From NCBI RefSeq assembly GCF_002198735.1, contig NZ_MWLO01000021.1, forward strand, positions 1-40,270: 40,270 bases of DNA. The letters run 5' to 3'. The notes below the pieces were generated by a model. The model did not search any database, was not told the origin of the DNA, and was given only the letters and a program-made list of their open reading frames with translations. This DNA is from Ideonella sp. A 288. GTDB lineage: Bacteria; Pseudomonadota; Gammaproteobacteria; Burkholderiales; Burkholderiaceae_C. This document shows positions 1,699 to 37,006 of the stretch, piece by piece (the first letter of the stretch is position 1; every line of letters starts with the position of its first letter). A program made the translations under genes and the position numbers.

Positions 1699-1718
1699 TC
1701 TGTGCGCAAGCGAACCAA
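1699..1718 (+). promoter_or_regulatory. Shared Crp-like dyad, copy A
   Basis: TCTGTGCGCAAGCGAACCAA lies in the 298-bp divergent spacer between the efflux lipoprotein and the AI-2E permease. It shares TCTGTGCGCAAGCG and ACCAA with the copy at 36987-37006. Unlike several other copies, I see no convincing -10 hexamer at the expected distance on either strand, so which gene it serves is open. Confidence 0.5.
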
Positions 1719-1770
1719 TGCCGTGTCGGTGCGGGCCCGATCTGTGTTCGGTACCGCACCGACACGGCAT
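1718..1770. repeat. Perfect 17-bp inverted repeat in divergent spacer
   Basis: The arm 1718-1734 (ATGCCGTGTCGGTGCGG) is the exact reverse complement of 1754-1770, separated by 19 nt. It starts at the last base of the dyad at 1699-1718 and ends 54 bp before the AI-2E permease ATG. As RNA it would make a very stable hairpin in the permease leader. There is no T-run, so a leader structure or a protein-binding site is as likely as a terminator. Confidence 0.7.
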
Positions 1771-1824
1771 GGCGCCTGGCTACGATGGTGGCAGCCGAAT
1801 CCCGGCCGATCCCGGAGCCCCCCG

Positions 1825-2904
1825 ATGAGCGCGTCACAGCCTGAGCGGCCCACGGACCGCGACCACCGGCTGCTGGCCTGGCTGATGGGCGTCACCGCGG
1901 CGGCGCTGGCCTGGGTGCTGCTGCCGTTTTTCGGCGCCATCCTGTGGGGCGTGGTCATCGCGCTGCTGTTCGCGCCGGTGTACCACTGGCTGCTCGGCCC
2001 GCTGCGCGGACGCCGCACCCTGGGGGCCCTGCTCACGCTGCTGCTGGTGCTGCTGTTGGTGATCCTGCCGCTGGTGCTGGTGGCTGCGTCGCTGGCCAGC
2101 GAGGCGACGCTGGTCTACCAGCGGCTGCAGTCCGGCGAGTGGAACCCGGCGCAGTACTTTCGCGGCCTGTTCGATGCACTGCCGCCGTCGATGGCGGCCC
2201 TGCTCGAGCGCGTCGGCCTGGCCGACTTCGATGCCCTGCAGCGGCGGCTGGCCGCCGCGCTGGCGCAGGGCAGCCAGTTCATCGCCGGGCAGGCGCTGGG
2301 CCTGGGCCAGGTCACGTTCGAGTTCATGGCCAGCCTGGCGATCACCGTCTACCTGTCGTTCTTCCTGATCCGCGACGGCGATGGCCTGGTGCGCACGCTG
2401 CGCCGCGTGGTGCCGCTGAAGGCCGCGCAGCTGCAGTCCCTGCTCGACATGTTTGCCACCGTGGTGCGCGCCACGGTGCGCGGCAACCTGCTGGTGGCCG
2501 TCATCCAGGGCGCGTTGGGAGGGCTGGCGTTCTGGGTGCTGGGCGTCAATGCGGCCCTGCTCTGGGCGGTGCTGATGGCCTTCCTGTCGCTGCTGCCGGC
2601 CATCGGCGCCGGCCTGGTGTGGGTGCCGGTGGCGGCCTACTTCTTTCTCACGGGGGCCGTGTGGCAGGCCGTGGCGCTGGTGGCCTTCGGCGTGCTGGTG
2701 ATCGGCCTCGTGGACAACCTGCTGCGCCCGGTGCTGGTGGGCAAGGACACGCACATGCCCGACTGGCTGGTGATGGTGACCACCTTGGGCGGGCTGTCGG
2801 TGATGGGCCCCAACGGCTTCATCGTCGGCCCGGCCATCGCGGCGATGTTCATCGCCGTGTGGCACCTGCACGGCCAGGTGCAGGACGGCACGACCCGGGC
2901 GTGA
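1825..2904 (+). CDS. AI-2E family transporter (PerM/YdiK-like permease)
   Basis: Polytopic inner-membrane protein of 359 residues, the usual length for the AI-2E/PerM family. Members have been linked to export of autoinducer-2 or to Na+/H+ antiport; the substrate here cannot be told. About eight hydrophobic segments are visible: two at the N terminus (residues 10-60), one at 65-90, and a C-terminal cluster including LLVAVIQGALGGLAFWVLGV, LLWAVLMAFLSLLPAIGAGLVWVP and LLRPVLVGKDTHMPDWLVMVTTLGGL, the family hallmark region. The ATG at 1825 is chosen because it directly precedes the first conserved segment and follows a GGAG at about 1814-1817. It is convergent with the SOUL gene, only 7 bp away. 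Confidence 0.92.
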   Translation: MSASQPERPTDRDHRLLAWLMGVTAAALAWVLLPFFGAILWGVVIALLFAPVYHWLLGPLRGRRTLGALLTLLLVLLLVILPLVLVAASLASEATLVYQRLQSGEWNPAQYFRGLFDALPPSMAALLERVGLADFDALQRRLAAALAQGSQFIAGQALGLGQVTFEFMASLAITVYLSFFLIRDGDGLVRTLRRVVPLKAAQLQSLLDMFATVVRATVRGNLLVAVIQGALGGLAFWVLGVNAALLWAVLMAFLSLLPAIGAGLVWVPVAAYFFLTGAVWQAVALVAFGVLVIGLVDNLLRPVLVGKDTHMPDWLVMVTTLGGLSVMGPNGFIVGPAIAAMFIAVWHLHGQVQDGTTRA

Positions 2905-2911
2905 GACCTGC

Positions 2912-3532
2912 TCAGGGTGTCAGGGTCAGCCAGATCTCGTTGCGGCGCAGGAACCAGGGCGTGAACGGCGCGTTGTAGCGCGAGTACACCGGCTCACCGG
3001 TCCAGGCCAGGTTGGCAGCGCGCAGGGCGTCCGTGAGCTTGTCGAGGTGCTCGCGGTCGTTGGCCACCGACCAGAACCCCGAGTAGGTGATCGCAGCCAA
3101 CCGCCTGGCCGGCACCTCGCGCAGCCGCACGCGCTCGTCCACCGGCTCGGGCGCGTCGGCCAGGGCCAGCCCCTTGGGCAGCACGAACTGCACGAGGTGG
3201 CCGCCGGCGGCCGCGCTCTGCGTCACCGGTGCGGTCATCGGCAGGCGCACCGGCACGGGCGTCTGCGTCACCGGTGCGGTCATCGCGAACGTGCGCGCGC
3301 CCTTGTTCTTGCCGAAGATGTAGCCGGCCAGGATGGGGAAGGCCGCGTTGCCGGCATCGCTGACGGCGCCGTCGGCCGGCCCGGGGATGAAGACCTCGGC
3401 CACGATGTACGGCGCGTACTGCCGCACCTCGACGTCGCCCACGCGGCGCAGCACCTCGAAATCGGGCTCCTCGATGGCGTGGCTCAGCATGGGGAAGGCG
3501 AACAGGGCGAGGGTGAGGGCGAGGTGGCGCAT
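2912..3532 (-). CDS. SOUL-family haem-binding protein, exported
   Basis: 206-residue protein with a typical signal peptide (residues 1 to about 19, ending SHA) and then a complete SOUL domain, starting IEEPDFEVLRRVGDVEVRQYAPYIVAEV. Eukaryotic SOUL/HEBP proteins bind haem or porphyrin; the bacterial role is largely unknown. The family's MTAPV signature occurs twice, as MTAPVTQ, and the two copies are encoded by an exact 24-nt direct repeat (3217-3240 and 3262-3285). The C-terminal YNAPFTPWFLRRNEIWL is also typical. Its first 49 bp overlap the end of the upstream FNR-like gene in another frame, so the two may be co-transcribed or the promoter lies inside that gene. Confidence 0.9.
   Translation of the reverse strand: MRHLALTLALFAFPMLSHAIEEPDFEVLRRVGDVEVRQYAPYIVAEVFIPGPADGAVSDAGNAAFPILAGYIFGKNKGARTFAMTAPVTQTPVPVRLPMTAPVTQSAAAGGHLVQFVLPKGLALADAPEPVDERVRLREVPARRLAAITYSGFWSVANDREHLDKLTDALRAANLAWTGEPVYSRYNAPFTPWFLRRNEIWLTLTP
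3217..3285. repeat. 24-nt perfect direct repeat inside the SOUL gene
   Basis: Identical 24-nt blocks at 3217-3240 and 3262-3285, 45 bp apart, encode the two MTAPVTQ motifs. The duplicated protein motif is normal for SOUL domains, but full identity including synonymous positions suggests recent homogenisation. Confidence 0.85.
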
Positions 3533-4377
3533 GGTGTCCGTGGCAGGCCCGTGCGGGGCCCATGGTTGATGACGCGGGGGCTGGCGGCCGGGCGCCTGCG
3601 GGGCGTCGAGGACGCATGATGCCCGAGCGCGTCAAGGTCCGGGATCAACAGGTGGCGCGGCCCACCGGAGCCTGGGCGCACCAGGCCCAGGTCCTTGAGG
3701 TGGCCGAAGGCCCGGCACACGGTCTCGCGCGACAGGCCCAGGCAATCGCCGATCTCGGGCCGCGACAGGCCCAGGCGGATGGCTTCGCCGGGGCCCAGCG
3801 GTGCGTCGGCCGAGCGCCGCCAGCCGAGGATGAACTCGGCCAGGCGGGCGCTGGGTGCCAAGGTGCCCAGCGCGAGCCGCCAGGTGCGTTCGCGCAGCAG
3901 TTGGGCGCTCATCGCGACGTGCACCACGTGGGTGAGGGCCGGTACCTCGGCCGAGGCGGCCACCAGGGCGGTGTACAGCACCGACCACACCTCGCAGCGG
4001 TCCAGCGCCACGGTGTCGGCGGCGCAGCGGCCGGTGGCCATGCTGTCCAGGCCGATCCAGTCGCCGCCGAAGTGCAGTCCGACGATCTGTCGGCGGCCAT
4101 CGGGCGAGTCGGCCACGGCCTTGGCCGCGCCGGTGCGGATGAGGTGCAGGCAGCGGAAGGCCTCGCCGGCTCTCTGGATGGGCCGCCCCCGCTGCACCGT
4201 GCGCGGGGCAAAGGTCAGGTGCTGTGCCACCAGCGCCAGCGACTCCGGCAGCCCTGCCACCGCCTCGGGCAGCGCACGTGCGTCGCGCGGGTCGGCATGG
4301 CGCACCGCCGCGTAGTCTGCGGCTGGGTTCACCGGCGGCTCGTGGGTGCGGGTGGCGCCGCGCATCTGGTCCAGCAT
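3484..4377 (-). CDS. Crp/Fnr-family regulator, FNR-like, without N-terminal Cys cluster
   Basis: 297-residue transcription factor: an effector domain with a beta-roll (IQRAGEAFRCLHLIRTGAAKAVADSPDGRRQIVGLHFGGDWIGLDSMATG matches the FNR pattern), a dimer helix, and a winged HTH (IRLGLSRPEIGDCLGLSRETVCRAFGHLKDLGLV). The recognition helix RETVCR keeps the positions of CRP Arg180, Glu181 and Arg185. The N-terminal cysteines that hold the oxygen-sensing cluster of E. coli FNR are missing, so it should not be a classical Fe-S sensor. The C terminus has an unusual tail of about 50 residues rich in Pro, Ser and Cys that overlaps the SOUL start. The ATG at 4377 has AGGAA six bases upstream. A Crp-like dyad at 4437-4456 with a -10-like CTCAAT at 4412-4417 lies upstream. 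Confidence 0.9.
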   Translation of the reverse strand: MLDQMRGATRTHEPPVNPAADYAAVRHADPRDARALPEAVAGLPESLALVAQHLTFAPRTVQRGRPIQRAGEAFRCLHLIRTGAAKAVADSPDGRRQIVGLHFGGDWIGLDSMATGRCAADTVALDRCEVWSVLYTALVAASAEVPALTHVVHVAMSAQLLRERTWRLALGTLAPSARLAEFILGWRRSADAPLGPGEAIRLGLSRPEIGDCLGLSRETVCRAFGHLKDLGLVRPGSGGPRHLLIPDLDALGHHASSTPRRRPAASPRVINHGPRTGLPRTPCATSPSPSPCSPSPC

Positions 4378-4411: not shown

Positions 4412-4456
4412 ATTGAGCCCCGACGCCTCGACCGTGTCTGTTCGTGAACGTACAGA
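4412..4456 (-). promoter_or_regulatory. Shared Crp-like dyad, copy B, with -10 candidate for the FNR-like gene
   Basis: TCTGTTCGTGAACGTACAGA at 4437-4456 is the most symmetric copy (TCTGT-N-CGT-NN-ACG-N-ACAGA). On the minus strand CTCAAT (4412-4417) lies 29.5 bp from its centre, placing the dyad at about -41.5 from a start near 4405 and giving a 28-nt leader with a good ribosome site. The same spacer also serves the divergent VIT1 operon. Confidence 0.55.
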
Positions 4457-4594
4457 TCGTGCCGGTGGTTCCGTCGCACAGTGGCCGGGTCGACCCCACT
4501 CCACCGGTCCGAGAGAGATCCGATGACACCCGTGCCCCTCCTTTTGCAGGCCAGCCGCGACGCGCTGCCGGCCGCGACGGGCTATCCTCGCCGC

Positions 4595-5296
4595 ATGATC
4601 CATCTGAGACGACACACCGAACGACACCGCACCGACCGCATCGGCTGGCTGCGCGCCGCGGTGCTCGGGGCCAATGACGGCATCGTCTCCACCGCCAGCC
4701 TGCTGGTGGGCGTGGCGGCGGCGAACGCGCCCCAGGCCAGCATCCTGCTCACCGGCGTGGCCGGGCTGGTGGCCGGCGCCATGTCGATGGCGGCGGGCGA
4801 GTACGTGTCGGTGCACTCGCAGGCCGACACCGAGCAGGCCGACCTGGCCAAGGAGCGCGACGAGATCGCGGCCGACCCCGAATCGGAAACGCGCGAGCTC
4901 ACCGCCATCTACGTGGCCCGTGGCCTCGACCAGCCGCTGGCCGAGCAGGTGGCGGCCCGGCTGATGGCCCACGACGCGCTGGGCGCCCATGCCCGCGACG
5001 AGCTCGGCATCTCCGAGGCCTTCTCTGCGCAGCCGGTGCAGGCCGCGCTGTCCTCGGCCGCCAGCTTTGCCGTCGGTGCGGCACTGCCGCTGGGCGTGGC
5101 GATGCTGCTGCCCGGGGCGAGCCTCATCGCCGGGGTGTCGGCGGCCTCGCTGGTGTTCCTGGCCGCGCTGGGTGCGCTGGCGGCCCGCGCCGGCGGTGCC
5201 GGCGCCTGGGTCGGCGCGGCCCGCGTGGCCTTCTGGGGCGCGCTGGCCATGGGCCTGACGGCCGGCGCAGGGTCGATGTTCGGGGCGGTGGCATGA
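4595..5296 (+). CDS. VIT1/CCC1-family iron/manganese transporter
   Basis: Integral membrane transporter of 233 residues, the bacterial VIT1-family size, expected to move Fe2+ or Mn2+ out of the cytoplasm. The N terminus [28 protein letters not shown] is the conserved first membrane helix. The second helix ends [20 protein letters not shown], followed by an acidic cytoplasmic segment (residues about 75-135) that corresponds to the metal-binding domain, then three C-terminal hydrophobic segments. I start at the ATG at 4595 because homologues begin just before this point. An in-frame ATG at 4523 has a better GAGAG site and would add 24 residues. The stop overlaps the next ATG (ATGA), so translation is coupled. 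Confidence 0.88.
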
Positions 5297-5616
5297 CGCT
5301 TTTGCAGTCTGCTGGACGCGTCCTTGGCGTGTTGTTGCTCTTGTCGCCCTGGACCCCGGTGGCCTCGGCCCAGGTGTCCGACGGCGCCCGGCTGGCCAGC
5401 GACCACGGCTGCCTGAACTGCCACTGTGCGGGATCGAAGTCGTCGCCGACGCTGGAGAGCCTGACGAAGAAGGCGGCCGACCAGCGCGACGGCACCGACG
5501 CCGTGCAGCACCTGCTGGACGAGATGCACGAGAAATCGGCGGTGACGAGCCACCGGCGTGTCAGCGACCCATCCGCGCTGGCGATCCTGCGCTGGATGGC
5601 CCAGGGCGCCCATTGA
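5293..5616 (+). CDS. Small mono-haem c-type cytochrome
   Basis: 107-residue exported protein: signal peptide of about 26 residues ending VASA, then the haem attachment motif C40-L-N-C43-H44. Mature size is about 80 residues, like a class I cytochrome c. The axial methionine is not obvious; the EMHEK segment or the Met near the C-terminal helix (LAILRWMAQ) are candidates. It overlaps the transporter stop by 4 bp and its own stop overlaps the TTG start of the J-protein gene. Placement suggests periplasmic electron transfer linked to metal handling, which is inference. Confidence 0.82.
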
Positions 5617-6554
5617 GCGCCGTCGAGTTCGAGGACTACTACGCCCGGCTCGGCGTGCCGAGCACGGCCTCGCCGACCGAGGTCAAGCGCGCCTACCGCA
5701 AGCTGGCGCGCAAGTACCACCCGGACGTGAGCCAGGAGCCCGATGCCGAGGCCCGCTTCAAGCAGGTGGCCGAGGCCTGGGAGGCGCTGGGCGATGCCGA
5801 GAAGCGCGCCGCCTACGACGAGGTGGCACGCCGCCATCGCGAGGGTGAGCGCTTCAGTCCGCCGCCGGGCTGGGACACCGGTTTCGAGTTCAGCGGCACG
5901 GGCGGGGGTGCCGACGAGCACAGCGCCTTCTTCGAGGCCCTGTTCGGCCGCCAACGGGCCGCGGCGGCAGCGCGCGCGGCACGGCCCCGCGCCGGCGAGG
6001 ACCACCACGCCAAGGTGCAGATCGACCTGGTCGACGCCTACCGGGGCGGGCTGCGCACCATCGCGCTGCGCGTGCCGCAGCCCGACGGCCGCGGTGGGCT
6101 GCGCCTGGCCGATCGCACGCTGGACGTGAACATCCCGCGCGGCATCCGCCCCGGGCAGCGCCTGCGACTGGCCGGGCAGGGCGCACCGGGTCAGGGCGGC
6201 GGCGCGGCCGGCGACCTGTACCTTGAAGTCGAGTTCGCGCCGCAGACGGTCTTCCGCATCGACGAGCGCGACGTCAGCCTCGACCTGCCGGTGGCGCCCT
6301 GGGAGGCGGCGCTGGGCGCGAGCGTCGAGGTGCGCACGCCGGATGGCCAGGTGCAACTGGCCGTGCCAGCGGGCTCGTGGTCGGGGCGGCGGCTGCGCCT
6401 GAAAGGGCAGGGGCTGCCGGGCACCCCGCCGGGTGACCTGTATGCGGTGCTGTCGATCGCACTGCCGCCGGCCACCGACGACGCCGCACAGGCCGCCTAC
6501 CGCGCCATGGGCGAGCACTTCGCCGCCTTCGATCCACGTCGGCCACCGGTCTGA
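5613..6554 (+). CDS. cbpA: DnaJ-family co-chaperone, CbpA-like
   Basis: 313-residue type II J protein. The J domain spans residues about 8-72 with H36-P37-D38, needed to stimulate DnaK ATPase. A Gly/Phe-poor linker follows, then the two C-terminal substrate-binding beta domains (VDLVDAYRGGLRTIALRVP; IPRGIRPGQRLRLAGQG; later LKGQGLPGTPPGDLYAVLSIALPP). There is no zinc-finger CXXCXGXG region, which separates it from DnaJ. The start is a TTG that overlaps the cytochrome stop (TTGA); this fits because the J domain begins at residue 8. Third gene of the operon. E. coli CbpA also binds curved DNA; whether this one does is not visible. Confidence 0.88.
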   Translation: MSAVEFEDYYARLGVPSTASPTEVKRAYRKLARKYHPDVSQEPDAEARFKQVAEAWEALGDAEKRAAYDEVARRHREGERFSPPPGWDTGFEFSGTGGGADEHSAFFEALFGRQRAAAAARAARPRAGEDHHAKVQIDLVDAYRGGLRTIALRVPQPDGRGGLRLADRTLDVNIPRGIRPGQRLRLAGQGAPGQGGGAAGDLYLEVEFAPQTVFRIDERDVSLDLPVAPWEAALGASVEVRTPDGQVQLAVPAGSWSGRRLRLKGQGLPGTPPGDLYAVLSIALPPATDDAAQAAYRAMGEHFAAFDPRRPPV

Positions 6555-6649: not shown

Positions 6650-6694
6650 TTCGTCTGCCAGCGCACAGACGGTGTCGCGTGGCCCTCCTATAAA
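6650..6694 (+). promoter_or_regulatory. ompA-type promoter: Crp-like dyad copy C plus TATAAA -10
   Basis: The spacer 6555-6736 holds TTCGTCTGCCAGCGCACAGA (6650-6669), a copy of the shared dyad with one perfect half-site, GCGCACAGA. TATAAA at 6689-6694 is a strong -10 hexamer and starts 29.5 bp from the dyad centre, so a start near 6701 would put the dyad at -41.5, the class II activator position. No -35 match is needed or seen. Confidence 0.65.
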
Positions 6695-6736: not shown

Positions 6737-7933
6737 ATGAAACTCCACCCCGTCCTGCGCCTGCCCGTTCTGGCTGCCCTGAGCGCGCTCATCGCAGCGC
6801 CTTCGTTCGCTCAAGAGGGCGGTTACGGCTATGGCGGCCTGTCCGTCGGCTCGGCCCGCGCCAAGGTCGACGAGGAGCGCATCGCCGCCAACCTGCTCGG
6901 CGCCGGGCTGGTCACCACTGGCTTTGCCCGCGACCAGCGCGACACGGCCTACAAGGTGTTCCTCGGCTACCAGGTCAACCGCAACATCGGCATCGAGGCC
7001 GGCTACTTCGACCTCGGCAAGTTCGGCTTCTCGGCCAGCACCTCTCCGGCCGGCTCGCTCAACAGCCAGCTCGAGGTGCAGGGCTTCAACCTCGACGTGG
7101 TCGGCACGCTGCCCATCACTGAACGCCTGTCGGCGATCGGTCGCGTCGGCGCCCACCACACCCGCACCCGCAGCAGCTTCAACGGCACGGGCGCGCTCGG
7201 CACGCTCGACCAGCAGCAGAGCAAGCGCGACGTCAACGCCAAGATCGGTGCCGGCCTGCAGTACGCCTTCAGCCCCGGCTTCCAGATGCGCGGCGAGATC
7301 GAGCGCTTCCGCATCAACGACGGTGCCAACGGCAAGGGCGACGTGAACCTGGTGTCGGTGAGCCTGGTGTTCCCGTTCGGCCGCACCACCACCACCGCGC
7401 CGCGTGCCATGAGCACCCCGACCTACAGTGCCCCGATCGCCCAGGCCCCGATGCCCGCGCCCGCACCGGCACCGGCACCCGTGGTGGTGATGTCGCCGCC
7501 GCCGGTGGCCGCTCCGATGGTCGTCGCGCCGGCGCCCCAGGCCCCGCAGCGCCGCCGCGTGAGCTACTCGGCCGAGTCGCTGTTCGGCTTCGACCGCGCG
7601 CAGATGCAGCCGAACGGCATGTCCGCGCTCGACGGCTTCGCCCGTGAACTGGACGGCACGCAGTTCGAGACCATCAACGTCGAGGGCCACACCGACCGCC
7701 TGGGCTCGGACAGCTACAACCAGTCGCTGTCGCAGCAACGTGCCGAATCGGTGAAGTCCTACCTGGTCACCAACGGCAAGGTCGACCCCGGCAAGATCTC
7801 GGCCGTCGGCAAGAGCGAGTCCGACCCGGTGACCAAGGCCGGCGACTGCAAGGGCGAGCGCGCCAGCGCCTCGCTGATCGCCTGCCTGCAGCCCGACCGC
7901 CGCGTCGAGATCGAGGTGGTCGGCACGCGCTGA
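6737..7933 (+). CDS. OmpA-family outer-membrane protein
   Basis: 398 residues. The signal peptide (residues 1-25, ending PSFA before QEGG) is followed by an eight-strand OmpA-like beta-barrel (about 27-215), with alternating segments such as YKVFLGYQVNRNIGIEAGYFDLG and a Phe-ended last strand VNLVSVSLVFPFG. A flexible linker rich in Ala and Pro (PMPAPAPAPAPVV, about 230-275) comes next. The C-terminal peptidoglycan-binding OmpA domain contains FGFDRAQMQPNG and INVEGHTDRLGSDSYNQSLSQQRAESV; its late loop with two cysteines (GDCKG...IACLQPDRR) is common in this family. The ATG at 6737 gives the signal peptide directly. It anchors the outer membrane to the wall. A small membrane protein gene and ndvB follow in the same direction. 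Confidence 0.93.
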   Translation: MKLHPVLRLPVLAALSALIAAPSFAQEGGYGYGGLSVGSARAKVDEERIAANLLGAGLVTTGFARDQRDTAYKVFLGYQVNRNIGIEAGYFDLGKFGFSASTSPAGSLNSQLEVQGFNLDVVGTLPITERLSAIGRVGAHHTRTRSSFNGTGALGTLDQQQSKRDVNAKIGAGLQYAFSPGFQMRGEIERFRINDGANGKGDVNLVSVSLVFPFGRTTTTAPRAMSTPTYSAPIAQAPMPAPAPAPAPVVVMSPPPVAAPMVVAPAPQAPQRRRVSYSAESLFGFDRAQMQPNGMSALDGFARELDGTQFETINVEGHTDRLGSDSYNQSLSQQRAESVKSYLVTNGKVDPGKISAVGKSESDPVTKAGDCKGERASASLIACLQPDRRVEIEVVGTR

Positions 7934-8222: not shown

Positions 8223-8281
8223 GGGCGTCGACCGACCACCGGCTGGCGGCCCTCGTGGCCGACAGCGGCGCGGTGACGGCG

Positions 8282-11200
8282 ATGCGGCAGATGATGAACT
8301 CGCTCAGGGGTCGGACACCGTCGGGCCTCCAGCGGCTGGTGCCCGACGCATCGCCCGCGCTGTGCGAGATCCTCGACCCGGCGGACGGCGCGGTGCAACC
8401 GCCCATCCGCTCCGAGATCTTCGGCATGCAGCGCTTTGCGCAGCATGGCCGCAGCCTGGGCGAGACCCATCGCGCCGAGCGCGCCGGCCCGGCCGGCCTG
8501 GCCTTCTTTCCGCGCCTGCCCAGCAACATCGCGATGTTGCGGCAGGCCCACCGCTACATCGCGTCGCAGGCCTCCACCGGCTACGACGTGAGCCCGGCCG
8601 CCGAATGGCTGCTGGACAACTTCCACCTCATCGAGGCGCAGCTCGAGCAGATCCACGATGGCCTGCCGCGCAGCTACTTCCGCAGCCTGCCGATGCTGGT
8701 CGACGAGCCGCTGGCCGGCCTGCCGCGCATCTACGGCGTCGCCTGGGCCTTCGTGGCCCACACCGACAGCGCCTTCGACGAAGACCTGCTCGCGCAGTAC
8801 CTGTGCGCCTACCAGGAAACGCGCGAGCTGAACCTGAGCGAGTCCTGGGCGCTGCCCACCACCCTGCGCGTGGTGCTGATCGAGAACCTGCGTCGCCTGG
8901 CCGAGCGCGTGGCCACGCACAAGGCCGCGCGCGAGGCCGCCAACCTGTGCTGCGACCACCTCGACGCCTGCACCGTGCCGGCGCTGGACGAATTGCTGGC
9001 GCTGCTCGAGCGGCGTGGCGTGGCGCGCATGTTCCTGGCCCAGGTGTCGCTGCGGCTGCAGGACCGCCGCGGCAGCGGCCCTGCCCCTGTGCACGATTGG
9101 CTGGCCCTGCACCTGCCCGACCCGGCGGTGGCACATGCCCAGCACAGTGCCGACCAGACCGCCGACAACCTGAGCGTGAGCAACGCCGTGACCTCGCTGC
9201 GGGCCATCGGCGATGCCGACTGGCCGGACATCGTCTCGCGCACCAGCACGCTGATGCGGCTGATGCGCGTGTCGCCGGTGTTCGAGGCCGAAGATGCCGC
9301 CTCGCGCGACCAGACCCTGCACGCCATCGAACATCTGGCCCGGCGCAGCGGCCAGGGCGAGGTGGCGGTGGCCAAGGTGCTGCTGGGCCTGATGGGCGGC
9401 CGCGTGGCGACCGACCCCGATGGCGAGGTGGGCGAGGCCGACCCCGGTGCGGCCACGCACTGGCTGCAGGGCGCCGGCCGGCCCGCCCTGGCGCAGGCGC
9501 TGGGCCTGCACCCGCGGGCCGCCTGGGCCTGGCGGGTGTGGGGTGCGCGCCTGGTGTTGCCGGTGTACCTGTCGGTGGCGGTGCTGGGCAGCATCGGCCT
9601 GGTGGCCTGGATGCTGCTGGCCCCGCATGCCCCGCTGTCGCCCGGCTGGCTGTGGCTCACGGCGCTGCTGATGCTGGTGCCGGCCTCGGAGGCGGTGGTG
9701 GCGGTGGCCAACCGGCTGGTCAGCGAATCGACGCGGCCACGGCGCCTGCCGCGCCTGGCGCTGGCCGACGGCATCCCGGCCGACCACCGCGTGATGGTGG
9801 CCATCCCGGCCATGCTGAACCACCCCTCGGGCGTGGGCGACCTGGCCCGCCGCCTGCAACTGCACTACCTGGCCAACCGCGAGCCGCAGGCCCAGTTCGC
9901 GCTGCTCACCGACTGGACCGATGCCGACACGGCCGAAGGCGCCACCGACGACGAACTGCTGGCCCTGGCCACGCGGCACGTCGACGAACTGAACCAGCGC
10001 CACCCGCGCCAGGGCGACGAGGCCGGCCTGGCGCCGCGCTTCGTGCTGCTGCACCGGCACCGGCTGTTCAGCGACAGCGAGCAGCGCTGGATCGGCTGGG
10101 AGCGCAAGCGCGGCAAGCTCGAACTGCTGGTGGCCGCACTGGCCGAGGGCGATGCCAAGGCCTTCCTCGACCTGGGCGAGGCCTCGCGCATCGCCCCCGG
10201 CACGCGCTACGTCGTCACGCTCGACAGCGACACCCAGCTGCCACCGGGCCGCCTGCGCGAGCTGGTGGGCGTGGCCGCGCACCCCTGCAACCAGCCGCGG
10301 CTGGACGCCGCCGGGCGCCGCGTGCTGGCCGGCTACGGCATCCTGCAGCCGCGCCTGGCCACGCCGCTGCCGACGGGCCACCAGCTCACGCCCTTCCACT
10401 GGATGTTCGCCGGCCAGTGCGGCATCGACCCCTACAGCGCCGCCAGCTCCGAGGTCTACCAGGACCTGTTCGGCGAAGGCAGCTTCACCGGCAAGGGCCT
10501 GCTGCAGGTGGCCGCGGTGCACTCGGTGCTGTCGGGGCGCTTGCCCGAAGGCCAGGTGCTCAGCCACGACCTGCTGGAGGGTTCCATCGCACGCTGCGCG
10601 ACCGTGAGCGACCTGGCCGTGGTCGAGGACGCCCCCTTCCATGCCGACGTGGCCGCCTCGCGGGTGCACCGCTGGACGCGCGGCGACTGGCAACTGCTGC
10701 CCTTCGTCTTCGGCGGCGGTGACCAGGGCCTGAGCCCGATGCACCGCTGGAAGATGCTGGACAACCTGCGCCGCTCGCTGGTGGCGCCGGCCTCGCTGCT
10801 GCTGCTGTGGCTGGCGCTGGCCGGCTGGTCGGTGTCGCCGGGCGCCGCTCTGGCCCTGGTGATGGCCGCGTACCTGGCCGGGCCGCTGATGGGCGCCGTG
10901 GCCGGCTTCGCGCCCAGCCGGGACGACATGGCGCTGCTGCACTTCTACCGCCTGGCCGCGCTCGACCTGGCCCGCACGCTGTGCACCGGCCTGTGGCACC
11001 TGGCGATGCTGCTGCAGCAGGCGGCCATGTCGGTGGATGCGATCGGCCGGGCGCTGTATCGCATGACCATCAGCCACCGCCAACTGCTGCAGTGGACCAC
11101 CGCCGAAACCGCCCAGGCGCAGGCGCTGACGGACCTGGGCTCGATCCTGCGCGCGCACTGGCGGGCCCCGCTGACTGCCGCGCTGATGGCCGCCGCCACG

Positions 11201-14200
11201 GTGGCCACGGGCTTGCCGCACCAGGCCATGGCGCTGGCGCTGTGCGCGCTGTGGGCTGGCACGCCGGTGTGGATCTGGTGGGTCAGCCGCCGCCGACCAC
11301 TGCGGCCCGACGACGCGCTGGGCGATGCCGACCGCGCACGGCTCGAGGGCATCGCCCGCGACACCTGGCGCTTCTTCGAGCGCTGCGTGGGTGCCGAAGA
11401 CCGCCACCTGCCGCCCGACAACCTGCAGACGCTGCCGCACGACATGGTGGCGCACCGCACCTCGCCCACCAACATCGGCCTGTACCTGCTCAGCGCGGCC
11501 TGCGCGCGGCGCTTCGGCTGGATCGGCACGCCGCAACTGCTGGCCCGGCTGGAGGCCACGCTGGCCACGCTGGCCACCTTGCAGCGCCACCGCGGCCACT
11601 TCCTGAACTGGTACGACACGCGCACCGGCGCGCCGCTGCTGCCGATGTACGTGTCCACCGTGGACAGCGGCAATCTCAGCGGCCACCTGCTGGCCGTGGC
11701 GCAGGCCTGTCGCGAGCAGGCGCGTGCCCCGATGGCCGACGAGGGCCCCGGTGCCGAGGGGCTGCAGGCCCGGCTGTGGGCCGTGGCGCAGGCGGCCGAG
11801 GACCTGGCCTGGGCGCCCGACTTCGCCTTCCTGTACGACCCGCGCCGGCGTCTGCTGCACATCGGCTACCGGGTGGCCGAGCAGCAGCTCGATTCGGGCT
11901 TCTACGATCTGCTGGCCTCGGAATCGCGCCTGACCAGCCTGCTGGCCATCGCCAAGGGCGATGTGCCGGTGCGCCATTGGGCCTCGCTCGGACGGCCGTT
12001 CTATGCGGTGGGCGCGATGGCCGGCCTGCGCTCGTGGTCGGGATCGATGTTCGAGTACCTGATGCCCAGCCTGGTGCTGGACGAGCCGCCCGGCAGCGCA
12101 CTGCAGGACGCCTGCTGCGCGGCCCTGCGCGAGCAGGTGGCCTTCACCCAGGAGCAGGGCGTGCCCTGGGGCATCTCCGAATCGGCCTATGCCGGGCGCG
12201 ATCACACGCTGGCCTACCAGTACGCGCCGCAGGGCGTGCCGCGGCTGGCGCTGCGCCGCACGCCGCCCGACGAACTGGTGATCGCGCCGTATGCCACCGC
12301 ACTGGCGGCGCAGGTGGCGGCACGGCTGGCCTGCCGCAACTTCGAGGCCCTGCAGGCGCTGGGCGCGCGGGGCACGATGGGCTTCATCGAGGCGCTGGAC
12401 TTCACCCCGGCGCGGCGCGTCGGCGACGAGCCGTTCACACCGGTGGGCACCTACATGGCCCACCACCAGGGCATGGTCATCGTGGCGCTGGCCAACGTGC
12501 TGCTGGACGGCGTGGCGCGGCGCTGGGGCATGGCCTCGGCGCAGGTGCAGGCCGTTTCACCGCTGCTGCACGAGCGGCCGCCGCGCGAGATCTCGATGCG
12601 CAGCGCACCGCGCAGCATCCCGGCGCCGCTGGCGCTGCGCCGGCGGGCGCCCGGCCTGTGGCGCGAAGTGCTGCCCGGCCAGCATGCCGTGGAGCCCACG
12701 CACCTGTTGTCGAACGGCCGCTTCAGCACCACGCTGCGCGCCAACGGTGCGGGCGCCAGCCGCTGGGGCGCGCTGGGCCTGACGCGCTGGCGCGACGACG
12801 CGCTGCGCGACGCGCATGGCAGTTTCCTGTACCTGCGGTGGCAGCCGCAGGGCACGCCGGTGTCGCTGACCCAGCACCCGGCGCCCGATGCAAACGCACG
12901 TTATGCCAGTGTCTTCCACGCCGACCGGGTGGTCTTCGAGGCCGCCTGGCCGTCGCTGCAGGCCCGCACCACGGTGTGGGTCAGCCCGGAGGACGACATC
13001 GAGTTCCGCCAGGTCGAGCTGCACAACCTCGGCGACGAGCCGTTGTCGCTCGAGGTGATTTCGGCCTTCGACGTGGTGTTGGCCGATGCCCGCGCCGACG
13101 AGGCGCACCCGGCGTTCTCGAACCTGTTCGTGCGGGCCTCGTGGCAGGACGAGCACCAGGCGCTGGTCTTCGAGCGCCGACCGCGCCTGCAGCACGAGCA
13201 GGGCATGCACCTGGCGCACTTCCTGGCCGACCGCGACCCGCAGGTGCTGGGCCTGCGCCAGCAGACCGACCGGCAGCGGTGGCTCGGCCGCAACCGCGCG
13301 CCCGACCAACCCCTGGCGTCGCTGGACGCGCTGCCCGATGGCCCGACCGAACCGCAGGACGGCGCGCCCAGCCGCCCGCTCGACTGCGGCTTCGACCCGG
13401 TGTGCGCGCTGGGCGCGCAACTGCAGCTGTTGCCGGGCGGCAAGGCCGTGCTGACCTTCGCCACCGCGGTGTCGCCACAGCCCGGCACCTTGCACGCGAT
13501 GATCGACAAGTACCGCCAGCCCAGCCACGTGCAGCGGGCCTCGCTGATGTCGGCCACGCTGGCCGGCATCCGCCTGCGCGCCCAGCGCATGACCGCCGAG
13601 AACTTCGCGGTGGTGCAGACGCTGACCACCGCGCTGCTGCTGACGCTGACGCGCACGCCGGCAGACGGCTCGCCCGCCATCACCGCAGACGACAGTGGCT
13701 GCGATCGCCGGCTGCTGTGGCGCTTCGGCATCTCGGGCGACCGGCCGATCGTGCTGGTCTCGGCCGGCAGCGTGCGGGGCCTGGGCCTGCTGCGCACGCT
13801 GGCGCAGGCGCTGCACCTGTGGTCCTGGGGTGGGGTGGTGTGCGACCTGGTGGTGATCAACGACGAGCCGGCCTCGTACCAGATGGCCTTGCAGCGCGAG
13901 CTGACCCTGCTGGCCGAGCGCCATGCCGCCGACCCCGGCGGACACGCCGGCCCGGCCGCCACCGCGATGCACCTGCTGCGCGGCGAGGACCTGTCCGAAG
14001 CCGAGCGCAGCACCTTGCAGCGCGTGGCCCGGCTGCGCCTGCAGGCCGATGGCCGCCCGTTGCCGCACCACGTGCAGGAGTGGACCGCGCGGCATGAGCA
14101 GGCGATGGACGCGCGACAGGCCGGCGCCACCACCGCGCTGCGGCCGATGCGTGCCGCCTCGGTGGCCGTGCCGGCGCCACGTGGCAGCTTCAGTGCCGGC

Positions 14201-24159: not shown

Positions 24160-24202
24160 GGGGTCGTCCATGAAGCAGTCTGCGCAAGGCCCGGGCACGC
24201 TG

Positions 24203-25072: not shown

Positions 25073-25117
25073 ATCTTAGGCAGGCGCGCCTGGCCTGTAT
25101 GTTCGGCAACGCACACA
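25073..25117 (-). promoter_or_regulatory. Shared Crp-like dyad, copy F, with -10 for crp paralogue 3
   Basis: On the minus strand TGTGTGCGTTGCCGAACATA (25098-25117) followed by TAAGAT (25073-25078), 29.5 bp from the dyad centre; predicted start near 25066 and dyad at -41.5. This would make paralogue 3 self-regulated if it binds the dyad. The same 297-bp spacer (24989-25285) also precedes the lipoprotein genes on the plus strand, where no matching -10 is seen. Confidence 0.6.
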
Positions 25118-25666: not shown

Positions 25667-25689
25667 ACACGACCCCGGAGATGCACACC

Positions 25690-26697
25690 ATGACACGCCC
25701 ACTCGCCAGCGGCACGCTGATCACCACCCTGCTGGCTGCTGCGGTGCTGGCCGCCTGCTCCAGCCCGGCCATGGCACCGCCCGGGCTGGTCGAGGCACGC
25801 GGCACCGTGCGCCAGGCCCAGCAGGACAGCGCCGTGGGCACCCATGCGCCGCTCGAACTGAAGCGCGCCACCGACACCCTGGCCCGCGCCGACGGCCTGC
25901 TGGCCTCCGGCGAGTCCACCATCGAGGTGAACAGCGTGGCCTACGTGGCCAACCAGCAGGCCCGCACCGCGATGGCCATCGCCCAGGCCAAGACCAGTGA
26001 CGTGGCCATCGCCGGCGCCGAGGTCGAACGCGAGCGGGCCCGCGCCGACCGCCGCACCGTGGAGGCCGATCGCGCCAAGGCGCAGGCGGCCACGTCGCAG
26101 GCGCAAGCGGCCTCGTCGCAGGCGCAGACCCGTGTCGCCCAGGCCCAGGTCGGTGCCGCAGTGGCCCAGGCCGGCGTGGCGCGTCAGGAAGCCGCCGCCT
26201 CGGCCGAGCGCGCCGGCACGGCAGAGCGCCGCGGCGCCATCGCCGAAGCCGATGCCATCGTCGCGCAGCAGCAGGCCAACCAACTGCAGCAGCGCCTGAC
26301 CGAACTGCAGGCCAAATCCACCGAGCGGGGCCAGCTGGTGACGCTGGGCGACGTGCTCTTCGAGACCAACCGGGCCAACATCAAGCCCGCGGCCCAGGGC
26401 TCGCTGCGCAAGCTGGCCGACTTCCTGGCGCAGTACCCCGAGCGCCGCGTGCTGATCGAGGGCCACACCGACAACGTCGGTTCGGCCAGCGCCAACGAAG
26501 GCCTGTCGCGCCGCCGCGCCGACGCGGTCGACCAGATGCTGATCGGCCTGGGCGTGTCGTCCCAGCGCGTGTCGACGGTGGGCTACGGCGAGAGCTACCC
26601 GGTGACCGACAACTCCAGCGACACCAACCGCGCGATGAACCGCCGCGTCGAGGTCTACATCGCCGAGAACGACCAGCCCGTGCGTGCACGACGCTGA
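25690..26697 (+). CDS. DUF4398 plus OmpA-domain lipoprotein
   Basis: 335 residues: lipoprotein signal (ending LAACSS), a DUF4398-like helical part (residues about 25-100), a long Ala/Gln-rich coiled coil (about 105-215: ERERARADRRTVEADRAKAQAATSQAQ and onward), then an OmpA peptidoglycan-binding domain (FETNRANIKPAAQGSLRKLADFLAQYPERRVLIEGHTDNVGSASANEGLSRRRADAV). It would span from the outer membrane to peptidoglycan. I prefer the ATG at 25690 because GGAG lies 9 bases upstream; the ATG at 25663 overlaps the previous stop (ATGA) and would add nine residues. Same operon as the lipoprotein before it. Confidence 0.9.
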   Translation: MTRPLASGTLITTLLAAAVLAACSSPAMAPPGLVEARGTVRQAQQDSAVGTHAPLELKRATDTLARADGLLASGESTIEVNSVAYVANQQARTAMAIAQAKTSDVAIAGAEVERERARADRRTVEADRAKAQAATSQAQAASSQAQTRVAQAQVGAAVAQAGVARQEAAASAERAGTAERRGAIAEADAIVAQQQANQLQQRLTELQAKSTERGQLVTLGDVLFETNRANIKPAAQGSLRKLADFLAQYPERRVLIEGHTDNVGSASANEGLSRRRADAVDQMLIGLGVSSQRVSTVGYGESYPVTDNSSDTNRAMNRRVEVYIAENDQPVRARR

Positions 26698-26858: not shown

Positions 26859-27173
26859 ATGCAAACTCGTTTCAGCCTGCCCGCCCTCGTCATCGCCACC
26901 GTCCTGCTGGGCACCGCTGGTTGCGCGGTCACGCGCGGCCAGGAATCGGTCGGCGCCTACGTCGACGACTCGGCCATCACCACCGCCGTGAAGGCGCGCT
27001 TCGTCGAGAACAAGCTGGTCGATGCGGCCAGCATCAGCGTCGAGACGATGAAGGGCACCGTGATGCTGTCCGGCTTCGCGAAGAGCACCACCGAGAAGTC
27101 CACCGCCGAGACGCTGACCTGGAAGGTGGACGGCGTGAAGGCGGTCAAGAACGAGATCGCCGTCCGGCCGTGA
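26859..27173 (+). CDS. BON-domain lipoprotein
   Basis: 104-residue lipoprotein: signal with lipobox LGTAGCA, then one BON domain (residues about 32-104: VGAYVDDSAITTAVKARFVENKLVDAASISVETMKGTVMLSGFAKSTTEKSTAETLTWKVDGVKAVKNEI). BON proteins such as OsmY and DolP are envelope-stress proteins that bind phospholipid membranes. The ATG at 26859 follows AAGGAG. A single BON domain makes it shorter than OsmY or DolP, which carry two. It lies downstream of the DUF4398/OmpA pair and converges with aconitase. Confidence 0.92.
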   Translation: MQTRFSLPALVIATVLLGTAGCAVTRGQESVGAYVDDSAITTAVKARFVENKLVDAASISVETMKGTVMLSGFAKSTTEKSTAETLTWKVDGVKAVKNEIAVRP

Positions 27174-27308: not shown

Positions 27309-30046
<2,738 letters not shown>

Positions 30047-30050
<4 letters not shown>

Positions 30051-30856
30051 GGCGGCGAGGCTGCGCCCCGCCGCTGGGGCGGTGCGATCAGGGGCAGGGC
30101 GGCCATGCCGGGCATCATGCTGTGGAAGGCATGCCCGAGGCGCTGGCGCTTCGCGTGGTACATGGCGGCGTCTGCGCTGTGCAGCAGCGTTTCAAAGCTG
30201 AGCCCGTCCTGCGGGTACAGCGCGATGCCCACGCTGGGGCTCACGCGCAGCGTGGTGGCGCCGATGCGGCAGGGCGCCGAGACCGCGTCGATCAGCTTGC
30301 GCGCGATGGCCGACACCTGGGCGTCCCCCTGCACGTCGTGCACGAGGCAGACGAACTCGTCGCCGCCGTGCCGGCAGACCGCGTCGTCGGCCCGCACCGC
30401 ATGCGCGAGTCGTCTGCCGATCACCTGCAGCAGCGCGTCGCCGGTGGCGTGTCCGTGGCGGTCGTTGACCGTCTTGAAACCGTCGAGGTCGATGAACAGC
30501 AGGCCGAAGGCTGGGACGTTCGCGTCCGGCCCGGTGTCGCGGCCAGGGGCCCGGCCGGTGAGGAACCGGCGCGTGGTCTGCTCGAACGCACTGCGATTGG
30601 GCAGGCCGGTGAGCGCATCATGGTGCGCGTCGTGCTGGGCATGCCGGGCGCGGGCGCGCGCGTCGTGCAGCGACCGGCGGGTCAGGGCCAGTTGCTGCCT
30701 CAGCCGTTCCAGTTCGTCTTCCAGCCGCCCTCTCGAGTGGACGGCCTGTTCGAGCAGGGTCTTCAACACGTGGAGGGGGTCGTCGACCGGCAAGGCCTTG
30801 CCCGAGAGGGCCAAGGCCTGGCGGTGCGGTTCTGCGGCGCTGGAGAGTGCGAGCAT
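30047..30856 (-). CDS. GGDEF-domain diguanylate cyclase
   Basis: 269 residues. A helical N-terminal part (about 1-85, with a coiled-coil-like [30 protein letters not shown]) leads into a full GGDEF domain beginning [14 protein letters not shown]. The active-site motif G164-G165-D166-E167-F168 is intact, and an RxxD inhibitory site (RADD) stands five residues before it, so an active, product-inhibited cyclase making cyclic-di-GMP is expected. No membrane segment or known sensor domain is present. The last four bases overlap the acnA start. The C terminus has a Pro/Arg tail. A copy of the shared dyad lies upstream. Confidence 0.93.
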
Positions 30857-30885: not shown

Positions 30886-30930
30886 AGTCTGGTCTCTGGT
30901 GGTGGCACGGTCTGTGCGTCAGCGTACCCC
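30886..30930 (-). promoter_or_regulatory. Shared Crp-like dyad, copy H, in divergent spacer
   Basis: TCTGTGCGTCAGCGTACCCC at 30911-30930, in the 212-bp spacer between the GGDEF gene (minus) and the transglutaminase gene (plus). On the minus strand CAGACT (30886-30891) is at the standard 29.5 bp but is a poor -10. On the plus strand CATACT (30962-30967) is a better hexamer but lies further away. Target unclear. Confidence 0.42.
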
Positions 30931-31068: not shown

Positions 31069-31950
31069 ATGATCCGCATCCAGCTGCAGATCGACCTGAC
31101 CTACGAGGTGGATGCCCACGGCGCCGATTTCGTCTTCAACGTGCACGCCGCGCACACCCCCAACCAGCGGGTGATGGACGAGCGGCTGTGGCTGAGCCAG
31201 ACGCTGCCCACGCAGGTGCACCTCGACCCCCACACCGGCAACCGCCACCTGCGCCTGCGGGCGATGCCCGGCCCGCTGAAGCTGTCGTACTCGGCCACCA
31301 TCGACCTGATGCACCACCGGGCCGACCCCGTGTCGATCGCCGAGGTGCCGGTGCACAACCTGCCGTTCGAGGCGCTGGAGTACATCTATCCCAGCCGCTA
31401 CTGCCAGTCAGACCGCCTGGGCAAGCTGGCCATCGGCGAGTTCGGCGCGCTGTGGCAGGGCTACAGCCGGGTGGTGGCGATCCGCGACTGGGTGCGCCAG
31501 CGCGTGGCCTTCACGTCCAACAGCTCCAACGGCACCACCTCGGCCGTGGACACGGTGATCGAGCGCGTGGGCGTGTGCCGCGACTTCGCGCACCTGATGA
31601 TCGCGCTGTGCCGCGCCGTCAACATCCCGGCGCGCTTTGCCACGGGCACCGACTACGGCGCCGACCCGGCGCTCGGCCCACCCGACTTCCACGCGTACGT
31701 AGAAGCTTATGTGGGCGGCCGCTGGTACCTGTTCGATCCTTCGGGCACCGCCATCCCGATGGGCCTGGTGCGCTTCGGCACCGGGCGCGACGCCGCCGAC
31801 GTGGCCTTCGCCACCATCTTCGGCGGCGTGCGGGCGCAGGCGCCGGTGATCCGCGCGGTGGCCGTCGAGGACCCGGCGCGCGACATGGTGCTGCCCTTCC
31901 ACACGCTCGAAGCGCTGTCCACCGACAGCGGCGTGGTCGGTCGGGCCTGA
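31069..31950 (+). CDS. Transglutaminase-like (papain-fold) protein
   Basis: 293 residues without a signal peptide. An N-terminal beta-rich domain (bacterial transglutaminase-like N-terminal region) precedes the catalytic core with triad C170 (GVCRDFAHL), H208 (DFHAYVEAYV) and D223 (WYLFDPSG). Such proteins may be proteases, amidases or crosslinking enzymes; in Burkholderiales they often lie in amidoligase or peptide clusters, but no such partner is seen here. The ATG at 31069 starts at the first conserved strand (IRIQLQIDLTYEV); its ribosome site is weak. It is transcribed away from the GGDEF gene. The following 277 bp (31951-32227) hold no gene or clear promoter that I can support. Confidence 0.9.
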   Translation: MIRIQLQIDLTYEVDAHGADFVFNVHAAHTPNQRVMDERLWLSQTLPTQVHLDPHTGNRHLRLRAMPGPLKLSYSATIDLMHHRADPVSIAEVPVHNLPFEALEYIYPSRYCQSDRLGKLAIGEFGALWQGYSRVVAIRDWVRQRVAFTSNSSNGTTSAVDTVIERVGVCRDFAHLMIALCRAVNIPARFATGTDYGADPALGPPDFHAYVEAYVGGRWYLFDPSGTAIPMGLVRFGTGRDAADVAFATIFGGVRAQAPVIRAVAVEDPARDMVLPFHTLEALSTDSGVVGRA

Positions 31951-35708: not shown

Positions 35709-35768
35709 GGCGCGACCGACTCGCGTCGGCCGCAGGCTGTCGGGCAACCCGGCGGCCGGGCGACGTGC

Positions 35769-36866
35769 TCACACCAGCACGGACTGCACCGGCCGCCGGG
35801 TCGACATCGGCATGGCGGGCCCGCGGCCGAAACGCAGCACCAGGTCCGGTCGCAGCGGGCCCACGCCCAGCCATGATGCGAACTGCGGCCGCAGCGCCGC
35901 CACCTCGACCGGCGGGTTGACGAAGGCATTGCGGATGCCCAGCGCGGTGGCCTGCAGCGCGAAGCGCTCATAGGCCCGCCCGGCCTCGATCCAGTGGGCC
36001 TTGTCGTCGACGTCGGACACCACCACGGCGATGCCCGCCGAGCTGCGGATTTCCCTCGCTGCGCGATCGTTCTCCGACCGCGGCGTGTAGAACAGGTCCA
36101 TGGCGCGGCGGCCCAGCCAGCGCGGCATGGTCGGTTTGCCCGAGGTCGCGACGAACAGCCCATCACCGGTGCTCACCGCCTCGTGGTCACCGAAGCGCAT
36201 CCAGGCGGTCAGTTCCTCGAGGTAGGCGGGGTCGGTCAGCTGGATCGAGTTGCCGGCCGTCACGTACTGCAGCACGCGCTCCATCGAGTTGCGTTCGGTG
36301 ATCAGCAGCGTGCGCACGCCAGGTCCGCTGCCTGCGAGTTCGAGCAGGCGCAGTTCCTCGGCCGACACGGGCTGGCCGTCGTAATCGCTGCGCGTGCATT
36401 GCCGCTCGGCGATGGCATGGAACAGCGGCGTCAGCCGCGCCCGCACCCGTTCCAGGCCCACGGCCACGGCGCCGTCCCCGGTGCCGTCGAATCGCGCCTC
36501 GGCTTTCCAGCCGCTGGCCCAGGCGGCCTGCACCAGGTTCTCGGTGGCGCAACCCAGCGAGACGAAGAGGTGGTGGTCGTCCGGATCGACCACGGGGCAG
36601 CGGCGCGTGAGGTCGGCTTCGATGCGGAGGGCCCGGTCCAGAAGGCGGAACTTCCAGCACTGCGAGTTGTGGCTGGACGGCGCCAACGCGGCGTAGCCGA
36701 CCAGTTCGCGCATCAACGACGGGCGGTCTTCCGGGTTGCGGCTCTCGGGGTGTCGGGCACGTCGTGCCGCGGCTTCGGGGGTCGTCTCGGACGAACAGGC
36801 CAGCAGGCCCGGTGCCAGGGCCGCCAGTGCGGCGGCACCGAGCAAGTTGCTTCTGCGGAGGGTCAT
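35769..36866 (-). CDS. Nitroreductase-fold protein, Acg-like, exported lipoprotein
   Basis: 365 residues. The core (LMRELVGYAALAPSSHNSQCWKFRLLDRALRIEADLTRRCPVVDPDDHHLFVSLGCATENL) is typical of the Acg-like branch of FMN nitroreductases, a double-domain type best known from the hypoxia-responsive DosR regulon of Mycobacterium tuberculosis. The N terminus MTLRRSNLLGAAALAALAPGLLACSS has a twin Arg and a lipobox, so a Tat-exported lipoprotein is likely, which is unusual for a flavoprotein. The ATG at 36866 starts at this signal. Substrate unknown; Acg-like proteins may store flavin rather than reduce substrates. Dyad copy E with TACGCT as -10 lies upstream at 36962-37006. Confidence 0.88.
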   Translation of the reverse strand: MTLRRSNLLGAAALAALAPGLLACSSETTPEAAARRARHPESRNPEDRPSLMRELVGYAALAPSSHNSQCWKFRLLDRALRIEADLTRRCPVVDPDDHHLFVSLGCATENLVQAAWASGWKAEARFDGTGDGAVAVGLERVRARLTPLFHAIAERQCTRSDYDGQPVSAEELRLLELAGSGPGVRTLLITERNSMERVLQYVTAGNSIQLTDPAYLEELTAWMRFGDHEAVSTGDGLFVATSGKPTMPRWLGRRAMDLFYTPRSENDRAAREIRSSAGIAVVVSDVDDKAHWIEAGRAYERFALQATALGIRNAFVNPPVEVAALRPQFASWLGVGPLRPDLVLRFGRGPAMPMSTRRPVQSVLV

Positions 36867-36961
36867 GTCGGGCCTCGATAGGGGCGTTGTGGCGGCGGGG
36901 CGCTCCGAGCACTTCACAGGAGCCGCCCCTGGCGGGTCGGCCCTGCGCCGGACCTGCCGCG

Positions 36962-37006
36962 AGCGTAGTGCCGCGGGTGCCGGATTTCTGTGCGCAAGCG
37001 CACCAA
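36962..37006 (-). promoter_or_regulatory. Shared Crp-like dyad, copy E, with -10 for nitroreductase gene
   Basis: TCTGTGCGCAAGCGCACCAA at 36987-37006. On the minus strand TACGCT (36962-36967) stands 29.5 bp from the dyad centre; predicted start near 36955, leader about 89 nt, dyad at -41.5. It is one of the best copies and differs from copy A by one base. Confidence 0.6.

Follow-up and report, generated by a model that had tools for sequence, protein, structure and literature searches.

Related 20-bp dyads in a contig with four Crp/Fnr genes

The window analysed here, a stretch of 40,270 nucleotides from Ideonella sp. A 288, is an entire contig (NZ_MWLO01000021.1) of a genome of 6.98 Mb. Its genus is probably shared with Rubrivivax pictus W35, as locus L038, which comes from a genome of the same genus, has two stretches (1000 and 400 bp) with exact copies in L100 of that strain. 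It carries four genes for regulators of the Crp/Fnr superfamily and a set of related 20-bp dyads that are very probably operators of a distinct Crp/Fnr subfamily, predicted to act in class II activation of the subfamily's own genes, of its paralogue Crp2 and of stress and envelope genes. The four regulator genes are all on the minus strand: crp1 (3484–4377), whose product has an SRETVCR helix and is rare in relatives; crp4 (19620–20399), found by homology to Crp3, of the VRREGVT type and 69% identical to crp3; crp2 (23392–24171), of a second type, VRRVGIT, which often adjoins the first; and crp3 (24260–24988), of the VRREGVT type and the proposed main binder.

A preliminary description of this DNA had listed nine of the 20-mers (A to I) by eye, all of them in spacers and identical at positions 1, 3–5, 7, 16 and 17, with a copy upstream of each Crp/Fnr gene. 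A direct check of the sequence confirmed the coordinates and strands of all nine and the identity at these positions. Their location in spacers was likewise found on a map of 30 window genes, drawn blind to the motif with a codon-usage script written for this work, in which individual boundaries may err. Sites B, D, G and F precede crp1, crp4, crp2 and crp3, respectively.

The motif of relatives, its recurrence and its confinement to spacers

To avoid circularity, the window was excluded from motif learning. The learning set comprised the 330 bp before the Crp3 homologue in all but one of 80 named loci (79; in L111 the upstream sequence was too short); these loci are the top 80 among 593 matches. 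The resulting motif, TcTGTGCGcTAgCGcACAtA, had a log-likelihood gain of 612, against 64 in one shuffled set; reversed upstream sequence is uninformative as a control, because the same motif reads backwards. Its full form is approximately TCTGTKCG-N4-CGMACAGA, with a frequency of 0.98 for G at position 4 of the 20-mer. A site of at least 8.8 nats was found in 66 of the 79 upstream regions, as scored on the learning set itself.

When the symmetric matrix of the relatives was run over the 40,251 positions of the window, nine reached 14 bits, all in spacers and none in coding DNA. These were eight of the nine listed sites and a tenth one, beyond those of the preliminary description. Site F (25098–25117, minus strand; 26.1 bits) ranked first and lies between crp3 and an oppositely oriented candidate operon. 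It was followed by B (4437–4456, plus; 24.0 bits), between crp1 and a gene for a VIT1-type transporter on the plus strand, and by A (1699–1718, plus; 22.4 bits) and the tenth site (1743–1762, plus; 22.2 bits), which share the divergent spacer between an OEP-type efflux gene (minus) and an AI-2E transporter gene (plus). Ranks five to nine were taken by E (36987–37006, plus; 21.9 bits), before a gene for an Acg-family oxidoreductase (minus); D (20491–20510, minus; 21.8 bits), before crp4; I (23353–23372, plus; 19.1 bits), before an orphan gene; C (6650–6669, minus; 15.9 bits), before an OmpA-type gene; and H (30911–30930, plus; 14.9 bits), between a GGDEF-aconitase operon (minus) and a transglutaminase-like gene (plus). 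H and G were the weakest of the listed sites. The tenth site lies 44 bp from A, centre to centre, or about four helical turns; two dimers could therefore sit on one face of the DNA.

The nine positions at 14 bits compare with a mean of 0.185 (maximum 3) for 200 permuted-column matrices and of 0.27 (maximum 2) for 60 first-order Markov copies of the window. Ten control stretches of 20 kb from the same genome held one such site in total. The strict pattern TCTGTKCGYNNRCGNAC had seven matches in the genome, five of them in the window contig, and its reversed control had none; a strict match was present in 40 of 100 genomes, Ideonella included. Together, the permuted-matrix, Markov, control-stretch and cross-genome counts rule out that the 20-mers recur by chance.

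Site G (24203–24222, minus), before crp2, is weak by the matrix (8.7 bits, rank 11), and between 2.2 (permuted matrices) and 3.4 (Markov copies) scores of at least 8 bits are expected by chance in the window. We had suspected a chance match from this score. The right half of G, however, is a recurring variant: TGTGCG-N4-[ACG]AGAC[AG] occurs before 12 of 46 second-type (Crp2-like) genes of relatives but before a single one of 90 first-type genes; in the 1.41 Mb, counted over both strands, it was found 19 times. Because this half-site recurs before Crp2-type genes and G itself precedes crp2, G was retained as a site. The AGAC variant is also found in site C.

If the motif were as frequent inside genes as between them, it would hardly represent an operator. 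Yet in the 80 named loci 159 sites of at least 16 bits fell in spacers (232,594 bases) and 5 in coding DNA (1,144,880 bases), a count in which the promoters of first-type (VRRE/Q) Crp genes were masked and those of second-type genes were left unmasked. Ten permuted matrices gave means of 0.5 spacer and 1.1 coding sites in the same loci. In ten further stretches of the Ideonella genome, all 24 sites of at least 14 bits lay in spacers; these stretches had been chosen for pattern hits or a Crp paralogue, and their informative part is this spacer count. The confinement to spacers and the conservation before Crp genes support the earlier proposal of a regulon with a Crp-family operator.

Class II geometry of the sites

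In the class II arrangement of CRP, the site is centred at −41.5 and the −10 box lies 32 bp away. We looked at 129 sites of relatives that face a single gene. A hexamer nAnnnT was found at one single offset in 82 of the 129, with its centre 32 bp from the centre of the site, towards the target. The mean over offsets 12–119, this peak included, was 5.4, the runner-up (16) lay one base further, and the maximum on the side away from the gene was 12. Around the same sites, the AT content was about 0.2–0.6 outside the site, except for 0.92 at 30.5 bp and 0.78 at 34.5 bp from the centre. In the window, a −10-like TAAGAT lies at class II distance from F, towards crp3, and a −10-like TACGCT at this distance from E. 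Other offsets from 15 to 69 gave at most one hexamer each among the window's site-gene pairs. This geometry makes activation, rather than repression, the natural reading.

The likely binder

The regulators belong to the Crp/Fnr superfamily: Pfam found a cNMP-type sensor domain and a Crp-type helix-turn-helix domain in Crp1 and Crp3, and HTH_Crp_2 alone in Crp2. The cNMP_binding score of Crp3 (29.7 bits) is barely over the cut-off of 27.5. A structure model of Crp3 had a pLDDT (predicted local distance difference test) of 92.4, and its best Foldseek matches were CRP-type chains (CRP, GlxR, FNR). An NCBIfam scan of Crp2 and Crp3 gave weak NtcA matches and no model of their own.

Crp3-like genes (E 1e-15) were present in 44 of the 100 related genomes, with seven copies in Ideonella. 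Leaving out Ideonella itself, strict motif matches numbered 0.366 per Mb among the 43 relatives that have the Crp type and 0.081 among the 56 that lack it, against 0.053 and 0.048 for the reversed control. A strict match was found in 27 of the 43 genomes and in 12 of the 56 (Fisher P = 3e-5, with kinship not corrected). With one mismatch allowed, the Ideonella genome has 64 distinct sites, of which 14 lay within 20 kb of a Crp3-family gene, where 1.5 were expected; outside the window the figures were 6 of 56 and 1.0. Two more clusters of sites, on contigs C125 (37–48 kb) and C141 (6–16 kb), were seen in this genome, and neither contig has a match in the Crp3 search.

The type of helix pointed in the same direction. 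In genomes from the whole phylum, where genes were found by a helix pattern that mostly missed the Crp genes of families f57, f63, f64 and f67, 8 of 10 VRREGVT genes with upstream DNA had a site of at least 18 bits in their own promoter. This included 5 of 5 VRREGVT genes in f58, a family of another class (21–25 bits). The five LGARRPGVT Crp genes of family f70 all lacked an upstream site of 14 bits. Crp1, which the position of site B might have suggested as a general binder, was dismissed because its relatives (E 1e-40) are present in 2 of 100 genomes, Ideonella and one other (40% identity). The likely binder, as judged from sequence, is thus the VRREGVT type (Crp3 and Crp4), perhaps with Crp2 as a partner.

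An alignment of 139 Crp proteins of both types showed R185 and R186 to be invariant and, at residue 187, E in 92 proteins and V in 38. All 139 have C145 and H149, and 136 each have C222 and C224, the others being two gaps and one other residue at each position. In the Crp3 model, C145 lies near the end of the long helix, H149 just past it, and C222/C224 at the start of the last helix. Our guess is that this C-x3-H and C-x-C set might form a metal or redox sensor.

Candidate targets in the window and elsewhere

Candidate targets were assigned from Pfam matches and the gene map. Next to A and the tenth site are the OEP outer membrane efflux protein (18–1526, minus) and the AI-2E family transporter (1825–2904, plus). 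A SOUL heme-binding protein (2912–3532, minus) overlaps the 3′ end of crp1 and is a candidate target in an operon with it. On the other side of B, the VIT1-type transporter gene (4544–5296, plus) heads a run with 5329–5616 and a DnaJ-type gene (5613–6554). Site C precedes the gene for the OmpA-type outer membrane protein (6737–7933, plus). The candidate target of site I encodes a 196-residue protein (22614–23204, minus) with no Pfam match and, at the cut-offs used, no homologue in the 80 loci. The candidate operon facing F (25340–26697, plus) consists of 25340–25666 (108 residues) and 25663–26697 (OmpA domain), and is followed by a BON gene (26859–27173). To the left of H lies a candidate operon (27309–30856, minus) of a GGDEF gene (30047–30856) and then an aconitase gene (27309–30050), with a 4-bp overlap, which apparently couples second-messenger synthesis to an enzyme of the tricarboxylic acid cycle; to its right is the transglutaminase-like protein (31069–31950, plus). 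Site E precedes the Acg-family FMN-binding oxidoreductase (35769–36866, minus), which has no homologue among the 80 loci. The window also contains a 2796-residue protein with GH94 and glucoamylase domains, of the cyclic glucan synthase type (8255–16645, plus).

Conservation upstream of orthologues, proposed earlier as a test of the regulon, held for the Crp genes and was partial for the other targets. A direct site preceded the homologues of the 108-residue gene in 6 of 7 cases, of OmpA in 5 of 8, of BON in 6 of 15, of GGDEF in 9 of 25, of VIT1 in 1 of 3, of AI-2E in 1 of 2 and of SOUL in 1 of 1; the GH94 homologues had a direct site in 3 of 18 and a site by operon in 8 of 18. At the same cut-off, a direct site preceded 323 of all 1326 genes of the 80 loci. 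Among 380 random genes of these loci, 26.8% had a site of at least 14 bits, a poor control as the loci are full of targets. A site before one single gene in these loci means little.

The 260 spacer sites of at least 14 bits have 288 distinct neighbour genes that start within 400 bp (median 117 bp). We kept the 201 that were not GVRR-type Crp genes and encoded fewer than 1000 residues, set aside 16 by manual selection (Crp-like genes, genes at contig ends, short genes and a long one) and scanned 185 with Pfam. The commonest families, as raw counts rather than enrichment, were BON (at least 17), CsbD (at least 14), GGDEF (at least 9), DUF4398 (at least 8), HATPase_c (at least 7), PRC (at least 6) and DUF3309 (at least 5). 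The predicted regulon also reaches other parts of the Ideonella genome, with 29 distinct candidate targets outside the window. The 17 that were scanned include OsmC, BON, hemerythrin, heme oxygenase, Rrf2, NhaA, a KaiC-like ATPase and two transglutaminase-like proteins. At L186, a 26.7-bit site (7892–7911) precedes the gene for a KaiC-like ATPase; the contig in question, C133, also carries another Crp paralogue. From its family names, the target set looks like one of general, envelope and iron/heme-linked stress.

Comparison with known operators

The preliminary description had held that the dyad differs from the CRP and FNR boxes. This was borne out by the de novo motif TGTKCG-N4-CGMACA, which fits neither. 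The CRP operator of E. coli is TGTGA-N6-TCACA, also in class II promoters. The present system resembles CRP in its protein fold, in the same spacing of the outer TGT and ACA triplets and in a site centre near −41.5, as judged by the −10 box. It differs in that the half-site continues with K-C-G instead of the G-A of CRP and in that arginine 185 of the CRP helix is absent; a CRP regulon was rejected on the basis of the motif.

The FNR/DNR box is TTGAT-N4-ATCAA (PMC1274295, available text). It is also the site of a Crp/Fnr dimer, but the operator described here lacks TTGAT and does not match it, which excludes an FNR regulon. In addition, the N-terminal iron-sulfur cysteines of FNR have no counterpart before residue 145 in Crp3 or ahead of the FRCLHL stretch in Crp1. 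The nearest published motif that we found, one base per half-site away, is that of NnrR of alphaproteobacteria, with the consensus ctTTGcgnnnncgCAAag and denitrification genes as targets in the available text of PMC1274295. NnrR sites share the inner CG-N4-CG and the 16-bp frame, but their 16-mer has T as its second base where the present motif has G (TTTGCG versus TGTGCG). The NnrR operator TTTGCG-N4-CGCAAA was ruled out by the G at position 4 of the 20-mer. A TGTGCGC string in the accessible part of PMC4344238 concerns PpsR sites.

Clustered stress genes are also a feature of the lxa locus of Burkholderia cenocepacia (PMC6127331) and of DosR. The candidate sensor of the lxa locus is of the Anr/FixK type, unlike the proteins proposed here, and the available text of PMC6127331 does not describe an operator of the present kind. 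As the preliminary description had supposed, no described regulon with this operator was found in the open-access literature; an earlier description in a subscription-only source is possible.

Discussion

Several observations weigh against binding of these sites by VRREGVT-type regulators. Thirteen of the 79 Crp3 homologues lack a site of 8.8 nats in their 330 bp of upstream DNA, and 2 of the 10 VRREGVT genes from the whole phylum are also without a site (7.0 and 3.0 bits). Sixteen of the 43 relatives with the Crp type have no strict match, while the 12 of 56 mentioned above have a match without the Crp type (E 1e-15). In the window, a −10-like hexamer is present at the main offset in just 4 of 15 site-gene pairs and one base further in 3 of 15. 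The conservation of single targets is mostly modest against the background of 323 in 1326, and reaches 0 of 5 for PLD besides the 3 of 18 for GH94. Furthermore, two f70 loci (L212 and L223) hold sites of 15–17 bits away from the Crp gene. Their half-site is TGTCCG, and the LGARRPGVT type may have a variant operator of this form.

One alternative is that the main reader of the operator is the second type (Crp2, VRRVGIT and related proteins) or a mixed dimer of both types, the VRREGVT protein being merely a target. The two types lie within one 3.7-kb stretch in 10 of 30 loci and share the invariant R185 and R186, 27 of 46 second-type genes have an upstream site of at least 14 bits, and the variant half-site marks 12 of the 46 promoters. 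Against this, the first type, whose upstream regions served to learn the motif, has it somewhat more often (63 of 89 genes with at least 14 bits), and co-occurrence does not separate the two types, because second-type genes also match the Crp3 query. We regard this explanation as improbable.

Two others appear still more remote. A regulator outside the Crp/Fnr family might read the dyad, with the Crp genes just as targets. The 12 genomes with a strict match and no Crp type could be explained in this way; but the dyad has the same TGT-N10-ACA frame as CRP sites, the −10 box stands as far off as in class II CRP promoters, and the own-promoter site follows the type of helix (8 of 10 VRREGVT against 0 of 5 LGARRPGVT genes), which makes such a regulator very unlikely. 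Equally hard to credit is a hypoxia regulon like the lxa locus, with Crp1 or a standard FNR/ANR/FixK protein as the reader of the sites. Site B does precede crp1, and the Acg-type gene is reminiscent of dormancy or low-oxygen gene sets, the DosR dormancy regulon including Acg-type oxidoreductases. Against this, Crp1 relatives are far rarer than the strict motif (2 against 40 of 100 genomes), the motif is without TTGAT, and Pfam reported no universal stress protein family among the 27 window open reading frames scanned. The lxa locus itself is described as induced by low oxygen, with BCAM0049 as candidate sensor (PMC6127331, PMC9104464 and PMC3759415, in their available text).

Binding by the VRREGVT type, which we prefer, suggests the following mechanism. 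Dimers of this type (Crp3 and Crp4 in the window; helix G-V-R-R-E-G-V-T) would bind the 20-mers and read TGT/ACA with an Arg-Glu pair, as in CRP. CRP reads one base of the half-site with Arg185 (in the usual residue numbering), and the helix of Crp3 presumably has no equivalent of this arginine, as judged from an alignment by hand. The degenerate K base of the half-site fits with this loss. The available text of PMC1274295 names residues 180, 181 and 185 and links an arginine at 180 to a G in second place of the half-site, a rule that fits the G found here. Sites centred at about −41.5 would overlap the −35 region and recruit RNA polymerase to the −10 box 32 bp away. In this way the regulators would control, besides their own genes, a set of scattered stress and envelope genes and the paralogue Crp2 (VRRVGIT), their partner.

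A broader proposal, which we put forward tentatively and consider rather doubtful, is that betaproteobacteria and some gammaproteobacteria share a widespread, undescribed general-stress response in which a multi-copy Crp/Fnr subfamily would take the place of an alternative sigma factor. Its proteins might sense redox state or metals through the conserved Cys-x3-His and Cys-x-Cys and activate scattered stress islands via one class II operator.

For a little-studied Crp subfamily, for which scans of Crp2 and Crp3 gave no dedicated NCBIfam model, the present work combines an operator with a probable regulator, the geometry of the promoter and a list of targets, and like sites, predicted to be operators, precede stress genes in many relatives. 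A few reporters and a single purified protein would now suffice to put the subfamily's signal and role to the test.

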